A stretch of 42,453 nt of DNA, from positions 1 through 42,453 of the IMG/VR virus record IMGVR_UViG_3300023174_000302; one strand, given 5' to 3'. Origin of the DNA: a virus. This document shows, piece after piece, positions 31,200 to 42,453 of the stretch (positions are counted from its first letter, which is position 1; every line of letters begins with the position of its first letter). A program made the translations under genes and the position numbers. The notes beneath the pieces were generated by a model, which was not told where the DNA came from, did no database searches, and was given only the letters and a program-made list of their open reading frames with translations.

Positions 31200-31421
31200 C
31201 TAATTTAGCAACCCAGACTGATCGCCGCTATCATCACTGCCGTCAACAATATGTATAACTATTCTGCCTTTATTCTCGGCTGCTAGTCTAAGAAGCTCTT
31301 GCAGCTTTTCGGACGTAAACCCTACAACGACGCCATCATCTACAACTATAGACGCGATCCCCTCCGTGTCGAGCATAGTGGTAAACATTTCTGCGGTTTC
31401 GTCGTCAAATTCTTCACTCAT
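31200..31421 (-). CDS. 73-residue acidic protein, unknown function
   Basis: Starts at ATG 31421 with GGGGA upstream, 9 nt after the stop of the previous gene. The protein is acidic, with a small alpha/beta core (EGIASIVVDDGVVVGFTSEK, then KGRIVIHIVDG) and a hydrophilic C-terminus. It lies in the compact unknown-gene run upstream of the large structural proteins. Confidence 0.6.
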   Translation of the reverse strand: MSEEFDDETAEMFTTMLDTEGIASIVVDDGVVVGFTSEKLQELLRLAAENKGRIVIHIVDGSDDSGDQSGLLN

Positions 31422-31430
31422 ATGTCCCCA

Positions 31431-31769
31431 CTAATTCTTTACAGTTGTCTTCTTAGTTGGAAGCGCGTAGCCCTGTAAATCGGCCTTCGCAGGCGTGTCT
31501 GAGTTATTGCGCGCAAGTTTATATACATTCTTACTTATCTCAAGTAATTCTTCCATCCGTGGTGCACTGTACTTCCACTGTGACCCACACATCATTGTAA
31601 GAATATACATAGACATTATCAAAGTGTCATAATCAGGAATATCTTCGTGCTCTGCGTTGTTAACATACTCACGCACGCCCTTAGACATATTGGTTACGAG
31701 CTTTGCAATCTTAGTCCAGTTCTTAGCATATATTTCAGCTGCAGACTTATTACTCACTAGCCACTCCAT
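31431..31769 (-). CDS. 112-residue helical protein, unknown function
   Basis: An ATG at 31769 (MEWLVSNKSAAEIYAKNWTK) is preferred over a TTG two codons earlier, though neither has a good Shine-Dalgarno site. A CATAAATACTG sequence lies just upstream and may be a promoter element with a very short leader. The protein is mostly helical with no recognised motif. It is divergent from the metallopeptidase gene, with a ~30 bp shared upstream region. Confidence 0.55.
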   Translation of the reverse strand: MEWLVSNKSAAEIYAKNWTKIAKLVTNMSKGVREYVNNAEHEDIPDYDTLIMSMYILTMMCGSQWKYSAPRMEELLEISKNVYKLARNNSDTPAKADLQGYALPTKKTTVKN

Positions 31770-39292: not shown

Positions 39293-39408
39293 GCGGGCGG
39301 TATGTGGTAGGACATCCATGGCTAGTTGCGACGCTTGGTTAATGGCACGTGTGGCATAATGTATGCATATTCATTGTCCGTGTCGCCCACTGACCCACTG
39401 CGAAAACT

Positions 39409-39660
39409 ACCCCATATATGCGTTCGCTCACGGGTCCCTTGCGAATATCCCCGGTATGTACTATGAACACTACCCATATGCTTATTGCGACTTTGGGTCC
39501 CAGGCGACATTTACCCATATATACTCTTTTAAAATCCCCATATATTCATTCGAGCTTTGGGTCCCCGCGAACATTCCCCGGTATATACTAGGAACATGAC
39601 CCATTGCGAGATGCGCGCTCCGGGTCCCTTGAACATTACCCCATATATACATATGCATTC
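39409..39660. repeat. four degenerate tandem repeats of 63-64 bp
   Basis: Units start near 39409, 39472, 39535 and 39599. Each contains ACCC(C)ATATAT, a GGGTCCC core, a GAACATT/GAATAT box and a GGTATATACTA or CATATATACT box. Read on the minus strand with one +1 shift in the unit at 39472, they give consecutive 21-residue repeats sharing G-T-[QR]-[SE], such as IYRGMFAGTQSSNEYMG and TYRGYSQGTRERTHIWG. They may be remnants of a repeat protein gene or an iteron-like DNA element. Confidence 0.75.
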
Positions 39661-39776: not shown

Positions 39777-39869
39777 CACACCGGGCCCGCCCCGCGCAGC
39801 CCCCCCGGCGCGCGCGGCCCCGGCCCCGCGCGGGGGGGGCGGCCCCGCCCCCCCCACCCCGGCCACGGC
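39777..39869. repeat. extremely GC-rich block with self-complementary runs
   Basis: Nearly all bases are G or C, including runs of seven C and eight G. CCCCGCGC near the start can pair with GCGCGGGG further along to form a strong hairpin. It separates the tandem repeats from a TG/CA-rich stretch. It could be a terminator or an assembly-difficult region; long homopolymers also make base errors likely here. Confidence 0.6.
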
Positions 39870-40192
39870 CATGTGTGTCCGTGCCGTGCCCCCACGAGGG
39901 GCACGTGTATGTCGCGACAGGCACGTGGGGTCGTCATGGGTGATTCATGTGTCCATCCACACATGTGTGTGTGGGTGGTTGATGCATGTCCGGGCCATGT
40001 GTGTGCACGTGGGTTGTGGGTGTGTGGGTCTACGCCACATCCCTGTCCATGTGTGTCTACAGATTTGCACGTCCCTGTCCACCTCGAGCAGGCATGTGCC
40101 TGATGAGTGTCCATGCTCATCTACAGAATTCTGCGTGCCTAACCACGCGGAATCGTGTGGAATTTCCCACACGTGCATAGAAGGAAAACGTC
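39870..40192. other. TG/CA-rich non-coding leader upstream of the high-GC gene array
   Basis: No convincing gene is present; open frames here are low-complexity. CATGTGTG and CACGTG elements recur. TGTCCATG...TCTACAGA occurs twice, 64 bp apart (about 40044 and 40108), close to the period of the tandem repeat to the left. The right end holds CGTGTGG-AATTTC-CCACACG (40154-40173), a 7-bp hairpin just before the ribosome site of the first gene. It probably contains the promoter of the array, but no boxes are certain. Confidence 0.5.
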
Positions 40193-40603
40193 ATGGAAAT
40201 CAACGCCAAGATCGAGGAGCTGCGCATGATGTCCCCCACCACCCCGTGGAGGAAGGGCTTGGCCATTGGTCAGTCCTTCATCAATGCCTACGGCATGAAG
40301 GGTCTGGTCGTGGACGCGCAGCACGCGGTGATGGTGTGCACGGCCTGCAACGAGGCCGCCAAGACCAAGCACGGGAGCCCGTTGAAGGGGCGCGGTGACT
40401 GGTTCCACACCAAGTGCTGCACGCGTGGCGCGACCAACGCGGAGCAGGCCGTGGAGCAGGTGGAGGTCTCCGATCCGCAGGTGATGGCCCTGCGTGAGGA
40501 GATCCGCCGCATCCGCGAGGAGAAGGCACGTGCGGCCCGTGAGGAGGCGACGCGCCTGCTGTTGGAGCAGCTCCGTGCGGAGCTGGTTGAGCTGAAGAAG
40601 TAG
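40193..40603 (+). CDS. 136-residue protein with Cys/His cluster and C-terminal coiled coil
   Basis: ATG 40193 with AGAAGGAAA upstream. The middle holds CTAC and later HTKCC, a possible metal site. The C-terminal ~45 residues form a charged coiled coil (LREEIRRIREEKARAAREEA). High GC and strong G/C preference at third codon positions set it apart from genes left of 39 kb. No family is recognised. It is followed by the first tRNA-like element. Confidence 0.65.
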   Translation: MEINAKIEELRMMSPTTPWRKGLAIGQSFINAYGMKGLVVDAQHAVMVCTACNEAAKTKHGSPLKGRGDWFHTKCCTRGATNAEQAVEQVEVSDPQVMALREEIRRIREEKARAAREEATRLLLEQLRAELVELKK

Positions 40604-40610
40604 TGTTGTA

Positions 40611-40660
40611 AGGTGCGGCTGTGGAGGCCTGTATGCACGGTTCGAATCCGTGCGCACCCT
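40611..40660 (+). ncRNA. tRNA-like element 1 (T-arm plus acceptor stem, no anticodon arm)
   Basis: The T-arm is canonical: stem CACGG/CCGTG with loop TTCGAAT (40636-40652). The acceptor-like stem GGTGCG (40612-40617) pairs with CGCACC (40653-40658). Only 18 nt lie between them (a short GGC/GCC arm), too few for D and anticodon arms. It starts 7 nt after the stop of the preceding gene. Confidence 0.55.
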
Positions 40661-40664
40661 TCCT

Positions 40665-40684
40665 GTGGTACGCTGCAGGACCAC
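40665..40684 (+). promoter_or_regulatory. 5' leader hairpin before the 81-residue gene
   Basis: GTGGT and ACCAC are 5-bp arms around a 10-nt loop, between tRNA-like element 1 and the next ribosome site. An alternative pairing CCACG/CGTGG (40681-40702) is also possible. Confidence 0.4.
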
Positions 40685-40718
40685 GCACCGGGAGGTCCGT
40701 GGAACCTAGAGGTGGAGC

Positions 40719-40964
40719 ATGAAGCTCGCGGAGAAGATGTCCCTCATCTACAAGAAGGAGGGGCTCGATCCCCTGCCCACGGACAGGTTCGTTGTGGATG
40801 CCAGGAATGACAACGTCATTGGGCCATATAAGCACCAGGATGCGGTCGCCCTTGCACACAACCTGTCCCAGATGGTGAGCCGGGACGTCATCGCCATCAT
40901 CCCTGGTGCGGTCGCTATCGGACCGTTCTATGTGTTCACCGTGGATGGCAGGAGGGTCGAGTAG
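40719..40964 (+). CDS. 81-residue protein, unknown function
   Basis: ATG 40719 with GAGGTGG upstream. It begins MKLAEKMSLIYKKEGLDPLP and continues with RFVVDARNDNVIG and a beta-like end (GAVAIGPFYVFTVDGRRVE). No motif is recognised. It is high-GC and flanked by tRNA-like elements on both sides. Confidence 0.65.
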   Translation: MKLAEKMSLIYKKEGLDPLPTDRFVVDARNDNVIGPYKHQDAVALAHNLSQMVSRDVIAIIPGAVAIGPFYVFTVDGRRVE

Positions 40965-40971
40965 GGAGGTC

Positions 40972-41031
40972 TGGTGTGCCTGGGTGGGTGTCGTCCCAGG
41001 ACATTATTCCGGTTCGATTCCGGACACACCG
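40972..41031 (+). ncRNA. tRNA-like element 2 (best example)
   Basis: TGGTGTG (40972-40978) pairs with CACACCG (41025-41031) as a 7-bp acceptor stem with one G-U. The T-arm is TCCGG-TTCGATT-CCGGA (41008-41024), directly stacked on it. One other arm, CCTGGG/CCCAGG with a 10-nt GG-containing loop (40979-41000), resembles a D-arm. There is no anticodon arm; 60 nt in total. It lies 7 nt after the preceding stop. Confidence 0.65.
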
Positions 41032-41046
41032 TTGCAGTACGTAGGA

Positions 41047-41070
41047 CCCCGTGCACGTTGCGTCACGGGG
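41047..41070 (+). promoter_or_regulatory. 5' leader hairpin before the 66-residue gene
   Basis: CCCCGTG and CACGGGG are perfect 7-bp arms around a 10-nt loop, between tRNA-like element 2 and GGGAGGT. It may shield the 5' end of a processed message. Confidence 0.6.
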
Positions 41071-41090
41071 CACACAGGGAGGTAAACAAC

Positions 41091-41291
41091 ATGATGTACG
41101 CGTCGAAGAACGGGACCGTTGTTGAGCGTGGTGACATCCTCCACGGAATCTACAGCGAGACCTGGGTGTTCCTCTCCATCGTGGACAAGTACACCGTGGT
41201 GGTGGGAATTTACGGTGCGGAGGGAGCTGAGTACTACATGCCCACGTCGGTGCTCGGCATCACGGTGCAGAGCGTGGGTGCGATGGCGTAG
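41091..41291 (+). CDS. 66-residue beta-rich protein, unknown function
   Basis: ATG 41091 (a second ATG follows at once) with GGGAGGT about 7 nt upstream. It starts MMYASKNGTVVERGDILHGI and continues with beta-like segments (WVFLSIVDKYTVVVGIYG). It may be a small beta-barrel. No family is recognised. It is followed after 7 nt by tRNA-like element 3. Confidence 0.65.
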   Translation: MMYASKNGTVVERGDILHGIYSETWVFLSIVDKYTVVVGIYGAEGAEYYMPTSVLGITVQSVGAMA

Positions 41292-41298
41292 GAGTGGT

Positions 41299-41358
41299 GG
41301 GCGTGCCTAGAGGGAGTACAGCTAGGGTTGCATCCGGTTCGGAGTCCGGACACGTCCT
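41299..41358 (+). ncRNA. tRNA-like element 3
   Basis: GGGCGTG (41299-41305) pairs with CACGTCC (41351-41357) as a 7-bp acceptor stem with one G-U. The T-arm is TCCGG...CCGGA (41333-41350) with an 8-nt loop starting TTCGGAG, one base longer than normal. A single other arm, CCTAG/CTAGG with an 11-nt loop containing GGG (41306-41326), matches element 2. There is no anticodon arm. Confidence 0.6.
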
Positions 41359-41359
41359 T

Positions 41360-41379
41360 GCCGCACAATGGAGTGTGGC
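41360..41379 (+). promoter_or_regulatory. 5' leader hairpin before the 85-residue gene
   Basis: GCCGCAC and GTGTGGC form a 7-bp stem (one G-U) around AATGGA, between tRNA-like element 3 and the ribosome site GGGAGGT. Confidence 0.6.
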
Positions 41380-41396
41380 TTGCAGGGAGGTAATAC

Positions 41397-41654
41397 GTGG
41401 CGAAGATGGTGTATGAGCGTCGTGAAGACCGTGACCCGAACGACCCTGAGTGGGGATGGGGGCCAGGTGGGGAGTTCTCATCCCCCGAGGAAATCCTCGC
41501 CCACATCAATGCGCAGGGTGAGCAGTTCAACCGGGACCAGGGTTTGCCCCCCGATGCGAACCCGTACGTGTTCGCCGGGGACGTGGACGGCGAGCTGGTG
41601 TTCGCCCCCACATACAGGGGGCCGGAAATCTTCTTCCGGCTGAAGAAGCAGTAG
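41397..41654 (+). CDS. 85-residue acidic protein, unknown function
   Basis: Starts with GTG 41397, preceded by CAGGGAGGT. It is rich in Pro, Gly, Asp and Trp (RREDRDPNDPEWGWGPGGEF) with a helical middle (PEEILAHINAQGEQFNRDQG) and a beta-like end (GELVFAPTYRGPEIFFRLKK). No family is recognised. It is the last gene of the tRNA-punctuated run; a terminator-like hairpin follows it instead of a tRNA-like element. Confidence 0.65.
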   Translation: MAKMVYERREDRDPNDPEWGWGPGGEFSSPEEILAHINAQGEQFNRDQGLPPDANPYVFAGDVDGELVFAPTYRGPEIFFRLKKQ

Positions 41655-41663
41655 ACATGTAGG

Positions 41664-41696
41664 CCCACCCCAGGGAGTGGTTAGCCCTGGGGTGGG
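41664..41696 (+). terminator. strong 12-bp hairpin ending the punctuated gene run
   Basis: CCCACCCCAGGG and CCCTGGGGTGGG are perfect complements around a 9-nt loop, 9 nt after the stop at 41654. A second palindrome, GAGGGCCCTC, follows at 41703-41712. There is no T-run, as is common in high-GC genomes. Confidence 0.65.
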
Positions 41697-41753
41697 GAGG
41701 TTGAGGGCCCTCTAACCCTTACCAACCCGAAAGGGTAGAAAGGTTGTGCGCAG

Positions 41754-42164
41754 ATGGGAAAGCAGAGGTTTGACGGTGTCCTCTACTTCATTGCCAACTC
41801 CCGTGGTGGGACGATGTTCGTTCTCGGACCTGACCGGTCCGTTACGGACAAGCGAATCATCGAGGAGTTGGCCTTGAACGACGCCGGATACGACGCCCAG
41901 CAGATCCAGGACGTCATCGAGGAGTTCGCCCCCCGTCCCGGTGTGCTGTACGCTCCGGACAACGTGGACGTGCTCCGGGGCGACCTGGAGTACACGTTCG
42001 GGCTGGAGGTCTGGGCCGACCGGGAATACCCGTTCGACGGACCCCCAGAGCCGGTGAAGATGGAAGCTGTCCTCCCCGGACACGAGCCCTCCATTGTGAC
42101 GGAGGCGAAGTTCCACCCCCGTTGGGATGACGATGCCTTTGCATTCACCGTGCATGAGGCATAG
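41754..42164 (+). CDS. 136-residue acidic protein, unknown function
   Basis: ATG 41754, with an AAAGG sequence about 15 nt upstream. It begins MGKQRFDGVLYFIANSRGGT and includes RSVTDKRIIEELALNDAG and a Pro/Asp-rich C-terminal half (DREYPFDGPPEPVKMEAVL). Codons are strongly G/C-ended. No family is recognised. A hairpin-bearing gap or small membrane-protein gene follows. Confidence 0.65.
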   Translation: MGKQRFDGVLYFIANSRGGTMFVLGPDRSVTDKRIIEELALNDAGYDAQQIQDVIEEFAPRPGVLYAPDNVDVLRGDLEYTFGLEVWADREYPFDGPPEPVKMEAVLPGHEPSIVTEAKFHPRWDDDAFAFTVHEA

Positions 42165-42411
42165 AGTAGATGCGGTGCTGGTGATTGCGTCCATGCTGGG
42201 TGTCCACCTGGCCCAGCTTGGATGCATTTACTGGGTGGCGCGGGACCAATACAGGTGGGAGGAGGAGAATGATGAGAATGGTCGAATGCACCAAGGCCCA
42301 GGCCCTGGCCACCACCAATCACCCCGACGCCGTGAAGGAGAACATCCTCCGCGCGTACCGTGGAAGGTGGCCAAAGTGGGAGGAGGTAGGGCTTACCCGC
42401 CGAGGCGCTAA
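42154..42411 (+). CDS. possible small membrane protein overlapping the last partial gene (uncertain)
   Basis: ATG 42154 overlaps the previous stop; the frame has a hydrophobic segment (VDAVLVIASMLGVHLAQLGC) and then a basic/Pro-rich tail. It lacks a ribosome site and overlaps the better-supported gene at 42269 by about 140 bp. It also covers a long hairpin (42187-42225). It may be real only in its first ~40 codons, or not a gene at all. Confidence 0.25.
   Translation: MRHRVDAVLVIASMLGVHLAQLGCIYWVARDQYRWEEENDENGRMHQGPGPGHHQSPRRREGEHPPRVPWKVAKVGGGRAYPPRR
42187..42225 (+). promoter_or_regulatory. long intergenic hairpin before the last partial gene
   Basis: GCGTCCA and TGGATGC form the outer stem (one G-U); after a T-T mismatch, GCTGGG and CCCAGC form the inner stem around an 11-nt loop. 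This occupies the same position as the hairpins between the preceding genes, but here I see no T-arm. Confidence 0.5.
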
Positions 42412-42453
42412 AATCTGCGTCAAGCGGGTGGGATGCATTACCTACTTCCGTCT
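42269..42453 (+). CDS. partial protein running off the right edge, unknown function
   Basis: ATG 42269 (further in-frame ATGs at 42272 and 42278) has GGGAGGAGGAG directly upstream. The frame is open to the end of the window: MMRMVECTKAQALATTNHPD, then a helical basic part and RRGAKICVKRVGCITYFR. No family is recognised. It is preferred over the overlapping membrane-protein frame because of its ribosome site. Confidence 0.6.
   Translation, partial: MMRMVECTKAQALATTNHPDAVKENILRAYRGRWPKWEEVGLTRRGAKICVKRVGCITYFR

Follow-up and report, generated by a model that had tools for sequence, protein, structure and literature searches.

Anticodon-less tRNA-like elements between the small genes of phage operons, candidate sites of RNase P processing

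The window, by which is meant the whole 42,453-nucleotide stretch analysed here, contains three tRNA-like elements that lack an anticodon arm. The elements (E1, E2 and E3) lie one in each gap between four small genes at positions 40193-41654 (Table 1). Elements on the same plan form a widespread, unannotated class of RNA. On balance, with a probability of about 0.55, E1-E3 are longer-bridge members of this phage intercistronic class, and host RNase P cuts the polycistronic mRNA at them. The broader proposal, of a large new phage RNA family of mini-tRNAs that punctuate small-gene operons in phages of Actinobacteria and Bacteroidota, recruit RNase P after stop codons and leave hairpin-capped, stable mRNAs, is made at even odds.

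E1-E3 were read from the sequence and folded. Each consists of an acceptor stem stacked on a T-arm and of one extra arm having GG within its loop; an anticodon arm would not fit. The acceptor stem of E1 is GGTGC(G)/(C)GCACC and its T-arm is CACGG-TTCGAAT-CCGTG, the small arm with the GG loop being situated between them. E2 has the acceptor GGTGTG/CACACC, the arm CCTGGG-TGGGTGTCGT-CCCAGG and the T-arm TCCGG-TTCGATT-CCGGA. In E3 the corresponding parts are GGGCGTG/CACGTCC, CCTAG-AGGGAGTACAG-CTAGG and TCCGG-TTCGGAGT-CCGGA. The 3' tails are CTTC, GTTG and TTGC, and a purine-C after the acceptor is absent from all three copies. The spacing from stop codon to element is 8, 8 and 7 nt for E1, E2 and E3, respectively. 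Downstream of each element come another hairpin, a ribosome site and the start codon of the next gene, in that order; the start lies 60, 60 and 39 nt beyond the element. A descriptor scan found no element in the next gap (41655-41753), downstream of the gene that follows E3.

Table 1. Genes, tRNA-like elements and hairpins of the array in the window
Feature	Position	Strand	Basis
Small gene 1, 136 aa, upstream of E1	40193..40603	+	ORF; no family or relative found; stop codon 40601-40603
E1, anticodon-less tRNA-like, 18-nt bridge with small arm, GG in loop	40612..40658	+	read, fold, descriptor
Two hairpins (40661-40680, 40681-40702) between E1 and ribosome site	40661..40702	+	fold; z -1.28, alone not significant
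Small gene 2, 81 aa	40719..40964	+	ORF; no relative found
E2, tRNA-like, 29-nt bridge, 6-bp D-like arm	40973..41030	+	read, fold, descriptor
Hairpin CCCCGTG/CACGGGG after E2, then ribosome site GGGAGGT	41047..41070	+	read, fold
Small gene 3, 66 aa	41091..41291	+	reading frame; no family found
E3, tRNA-like, 27-nt bridge, 5-bp D-like arm, 8-nt T-loop	41299..41357	+	read, fold, descriptor
Hairpin GCCGCAC/GTGTGGC after E3, then ribosome site GGGAGGT	41360..41379	+	fold; z -2.41 for the stretch
Small gene 4, 85 aa, GTG start, downstream of E3	41397..41654	+	ORF; no family found

When the E1, E2 and E3 gaps were each shuffled 20,000 times with dinucleotide composition kept, a descriptor made up of a TTCRR T-loop and a T-stem stacked on an acceptor, at least 11 bp in total, turned up 1, 6 and 1 times, respectively. 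A stricter form of the descriptor, with a 7-nt loop, gives only E1 and E2 in the whole window, where 0.1 matches are expected. The folding energy of the full gaps is unremarkable by itself (z of -0.85, -0.20 and -1.04), so that the argument depends on the descriptor, which is specific to tRNA features, and on the relatives described below. An earlier, sequence-only reading had proposed that the three successive gaps share one plan of stop codon, fold, hairpin, ribosome site and start, and this was borne out by reading, folding and the shuffles. The acceptor stem and T-arm that it described are present in all three elements, with the correction that the T-loop of E3 has 8 nt, not 7. E3 is also the least regular copy in having a competing fold: the 63-nt element alone folds as that reading described, whereas the lowest-energy fold of the full gap is a different one.

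No tRNA or tmRNA was found in the window by ARAGORN, and no Rfam family reaches its gathering score there. The best Rfam match of E1 is a weak one to mascRNA-menRNA (RF01684), with 21.9 bits and an E-value of 0.13, short of the gathering threshold of 42.5. An ordinary tRNA was rejected as the identity of E1-E3, which have neither anticodon arm nor cloverleaf and do not match the Rfam tRNA family; tmRNA and the known Rfam families were rejected on the same ARAGORN and Rfam searches. No relative of the array in the window, as protein or as DNA, was found among GenBank phages or among viral contigs. The least probable of the readings considered is that E1-E3 are remnants of decayed tRNA genes or fragments of att sites, lying between genes by chance. 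Shortened or odd tRNAs do occur within tRNA clusters at some loci. Nevertheless, E1-E3 all have paired acceptor and T stems of differing sequence, are equally distant from the stop to within a nucleotide and show no anticodon remnant, and the class covaries strongly; an att fragment would comprise solely the 3' half of a tRNA. A tRNA-like gene of a halovirus described in the literature is an att site and is not one of these elements.

The GC content is about 46% in the preceding part of the contig, compared to 61% in the last 2.6 kb (39800-42453), the part with the array, and the junction at this jump is a long G/C-run at about 39780-39860. Because of the jump across the G/C-run, the 2.6 kb with the array may derive from another phage and the contig may be a chimera of two phages. 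The non-coding region at 39400-39660 contains imperfect repeats of the form GGGTCCC...ACATT(A)CCCCATATATAC, about 64-190 nt apart.

The wider class was found by way of a pattern with a short distance between acceptor and T-arm. Its matches were mostly inside tRNA-Tyr genes, but at a few loci the T-arm fold was intergenic. These led to a contig (G007) in which several short elements, all having GGCATACA as the bridge, each follow a stop codon. When this bridge was scanned for with no constraint on the outer stems, 77 viral and 13 bacterial stretches matched; scans with two more variants of the bridge matched 101 and 15 viral ones. The class occurs in 193 matched IMG/VR stretches, some contigs being present more than once. 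Because the inner letters of the scan motifs were fixed by the search, they prove nothing; the stems, tail, spacing and second hairpin were left free. The bridges of array members still contain GG under a descriptor that does not require it. The elements of the class have no match in Rfam.

The commonest form of the class is rigid. It has a 5-bp acceptor, an 11-nt bridge with GG, a 6-bp T-stem, a 7-nt TTCGAGT loop and an R-C tail; beyond the tail lie the second hairpin, the ribosome site and the next start. The covariation of its stems is overwhelming. In a set of 54 diverse sequences whose nine outer pairs were left unconstrained during selection, 98.0% of cells are paired, compared to 62.9% when the 3' letters are shuffled, and the covariation score is 0.846 compared to 0.175. 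Upon sliding the partner by one to three columns, the pairing signal is lost. The sets with the other two bridges have 96.8% and 99.4% of cells paired, compared to 61% and 53% when shuffled. The features conserved across the class are the TTCRA T-loop, the GG of the bridge, the stacked helix and R73-C74; the C after the purine that follows the acceptor is found in 72/73, 62/69 and 15/18 members of the three sets. Throughout the class, C is rare right after the conserved C74 (2/73 in the GGCAGACA set), as though a complete CCA end were being avoided. The second hairpin lies about 4 nt beyond the element and, in 37 gaps, has a mean z of -2.69, with 92% of the values below -1.

The class also occurs in the named phages Lika, Joe, Endor2, Send513 and MrMiyagi. 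In Lika, Send513, Endor2 and MrMiyagi all 45 copies are on the gene strand and 39 of them are intergenic, where intergenic DNA makes up just 8-15% of the span. The distance from stop to element in these four annotated phages has a mode of 8-9 nt, the next start is 33-58 nt beyond the element in 38/44 cases, and an element is present in 38 of the 62 gaps of at least 60 nt. In Joe all eight matches are on the minus strand at 43-48 kb, in a small-gene operon, and none is among the structural genes. The negative controls TM4, lambda and phiC31 give no significant match. At 31410-31550 of the phiC31 sequence (L162), in the gap from gene 13 to gene 14, there is an unannotated tRNA-like sequence with intact acceptor, D and T arms and an odd anticodon region. 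In Endor2 (NC_054673) an annotated tRNA-Arg at 44378-44460 (L161 8379-8461) covers a minihelix element (L161 8381-8420) and is apparently mis-annotated. Elements of MrMiyagi (L163 25305-25781) and Send513 (L160 25297-25830) lie inside annotated genes right after the preceding stop, which suggests that the annotated starts there are too far upstream.

The main rival to cleavage, with a modest chance of being correct, is a barrier or insulator that is left uncut, a stable tRNA-shaped fold past the stop that blocks 3'-to-5' exonucleases, or read-through and reinitiation, and so sets the stability and independence of neighbouring genes. The stable stems, their place right past the stop and the second hairpin downstream all fit such a barrier. 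A plain hairpin would suffice for it, however, and the conserved T-loop, GG and R73-C74 would be left unexplained. A role as decoy or docking site for some tRNA-binding factor that is not RNase P, such as a modification enzyme, the CCA-adding enzyme or a tRNA-cleaving defence system, with the position between genes set just by available space, is improbable. The T-loop and elbow by which such proteins recognise tRNA are indeed conserved, and there are many copies per genome, but neither the fixed distances to stop and start codons nor the strict use of the gene strand would be expected of decoys.

Whole-genome searches of eight bacteria gave 1-4 copies in six and none in two at the threshold used. 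The four Amycolatopsis copies are in a locus almost identical to a viral contig (L070), and the bacterial copies are likely prophage-borne. In AT-rich contigs and in Bacteroidota (Tenacibaculum, Hymenobacter) the element, as read by eye, closely follows a stop-like TAG. Phages that carry the class are numerous in both Actinobacteria and Bacteroidota. Not every copy belongs to a gene array: there are solitary elements, and at some loci the elements form tandem arrays without genes between them, so that punctuation may not be their sole role. In such arrays, at L070 6500-7200, L157 6750-7500 and L120 6100-7050, minihelices about 100-115 nt apart are separated by GGC-rich spacers instead of genes, upstream of a gene beginning MRIEM. 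L070 is nearly identical to L157, which is from Amycolatopsis antarctica. Free small RNAs, cut at both ends and acting in trans, with the gene spacing serving co-transcription, would account for tandem arrays and for the 4-nt R-C-N-R tail before the second hairpin, which resembles the 3' end of a tRNA. That reading is quite improbable, as no conserved exposed sequence for targeting is present outside the tRNA-like core and a genome can have as many as 15 copies, with unrelated stems.

The proposal of the sequence-only reading that anticodon-less tRNA-like elements punctuate the gene array is strongly supported by the recurrence of the plan in many phages, strand-specific, at fixed spacing and with a hairpin after the element. 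Equally strong is the support from the covariation of the class for its suggestion that the stems are kept by compensatory change. In agreement with its remark that no such phage system was known to it, a search of open-access literature, with few subscription papers and no preprints, found no published description of such elements, also under the topics of YrlA, tRNA punctuation with phages and mycobacteriophage noncoding RNAs.

E1-E3 resemble the class in architecture and position. All three have an acceptor stacked on a T-arm with a TTCRR loop (of 8 nt in E3), no anticodon arm and GG in the bridge or small-arm loop, and their distances from the stop are close to the mode of the four annotated phages. 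A covariance model of the rigid form with the 11-nt bridge (R1) gives no significant match to them and fails as proof of their membership. Because their bridges are 18-29 nt long, it finds partial T-arm matches only, of 11-12 bits (E-values of 0.7 for E1 and 0.49 for E2). Long-bridge members inside the arrays of Send513 and MrMiyagi likewise give only partial matches to R1, of 15-19 bits (e.g. 18.8). One of these phages, MrMiyagi, has within a genuine array an element (L163 25296-25342) of the same shape as E1, with an 18-nt bridge and a small arm having GG in its loop. The three copies in the window differ from the class in lacking the purine-C after the acceptor. E1-E3 are therefore regarded as a longer-bridge, D-arm variant, matching the class by architecture and position and not by model score, and not as proven members.

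The element may be viewed as the top half of a tRNA, an acceptor on a T-arm, to which the GG of the bridge or small arm adds a D-loop mimic. After translation of the upstream gene the element would fold and host RNase P would cut at the 5' edge of the acceptor. A fold that starts about 8 nt past a stop codon would lie just beyond the footprint of a terminating ribosome. The element, being just clear of the ribosome that terminates there, could thus remain folded and undergo cleavage at the end of translation. The upstream message would then end a few nucleotides past its stop, and the downstream message would acquire a folded 5' end (minihelix and hairpin), shielding it from 5'-end-dependent decay. 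The predicted outcome is that a polycistronic transcript becomes a set of separately stable single-gene messages, as with tRNA punctuation in mitochondria. Cleavage by RNase P, the protection and the effect on expression are what we infer from the observed structure, covariation, strand, spacing, second hairpin and recurrence across phages.

Circumstantial support comes from the conserved parts, the T-loop, GG elbow, stacked helix and R73-C74, which are those read by tRNA-handling enzymes. Model hairpins of acceptor and T-arm are substrates of RNase P, an enzyme whose known targets also include an mRNA and some phage RNAs (PMC11143913). Processing by this enzyme, as the sequence-only reading had suggested, is plausible and is the best guess. 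The spacing, order and GG shared by E1-E3 count for their membership of the class. Counting against RNase P are a stack of 11 bp, compared to 12 in tRNA, and the rarity of C75 of the RCC motif (2/73 in one set); the missing R73-C74 of the window copies and the failure of the searches to find a close relative of their array also weigh against the reading.

Should the elements prove to be processing sites, a tRNA punctuation resembling that of mitochondria would exist in bacteria and their phages, made from dedicated minimal tRNA mimics, and it would explain gene-by-gene message stability in phages with dense operons. Laboratory hosts exist: Streptomyces coelicolor for Joe and Endor2, S. lividans for Lika, and Mycobacterium smegmatis for Send513 and MrMiyagi. 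Whatever the mechanism, this is an RNA family without an Rfam match, unannotated in the GenBank records of these phages.

The tRNA-like domain of tmRNA has an acceptor, a stemless D-loop and a T-arm and lacks an anticodon arm. The phage elements resemble it in these parts but contain no reading frame for a tag, and the ARAGORN search of the window detected no tmRNA. The TMERs of the herpesvirus MHV68 have a viral tRNA followed by hairpins. Their tRNA-like fold with a hairpin directly after it is similar to the present arrangement, but they are polymerase III genes that make microRNAs. In MALAT1/mascRNA (RF01684) the upstream transcript acquires its 3' end through RNase P acting at a tRNA-like fold. 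That system is eukaryotic and single-copy, and no relationship is claimed from the sub-threshold match of E1. YrlA is, like the phage elements, a bacterial tRNA mimic; unlike an intergenic array, it is a noncoding RNA that exists free and is bound by Rsr, the Ro60 orthologue (2014, cited in PMC7790460). Mitochondrial punctuation by RNase P and RNase Z shares with the phage arrays tRNA-shaped elements between genes on one strand and, as proposed here, the release of messages. The mitochondrial elements are real tRNAs, whereas those of the phages have no anticodon arm and their cleavage is a proposal. RNase P also cuts operon mRNAs, the T4 gene 32 mRNA, M3 RNA and the C4 antisense RNA (PMC11143913), and these are likewise non-tRNA transcripts of phages and bacteria on which host RNase P acts, as it is proposed to do here. 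Their folds are isolated and transient or irregular, whereas the phage element is a repeated module with fixed spacing to stop and start.
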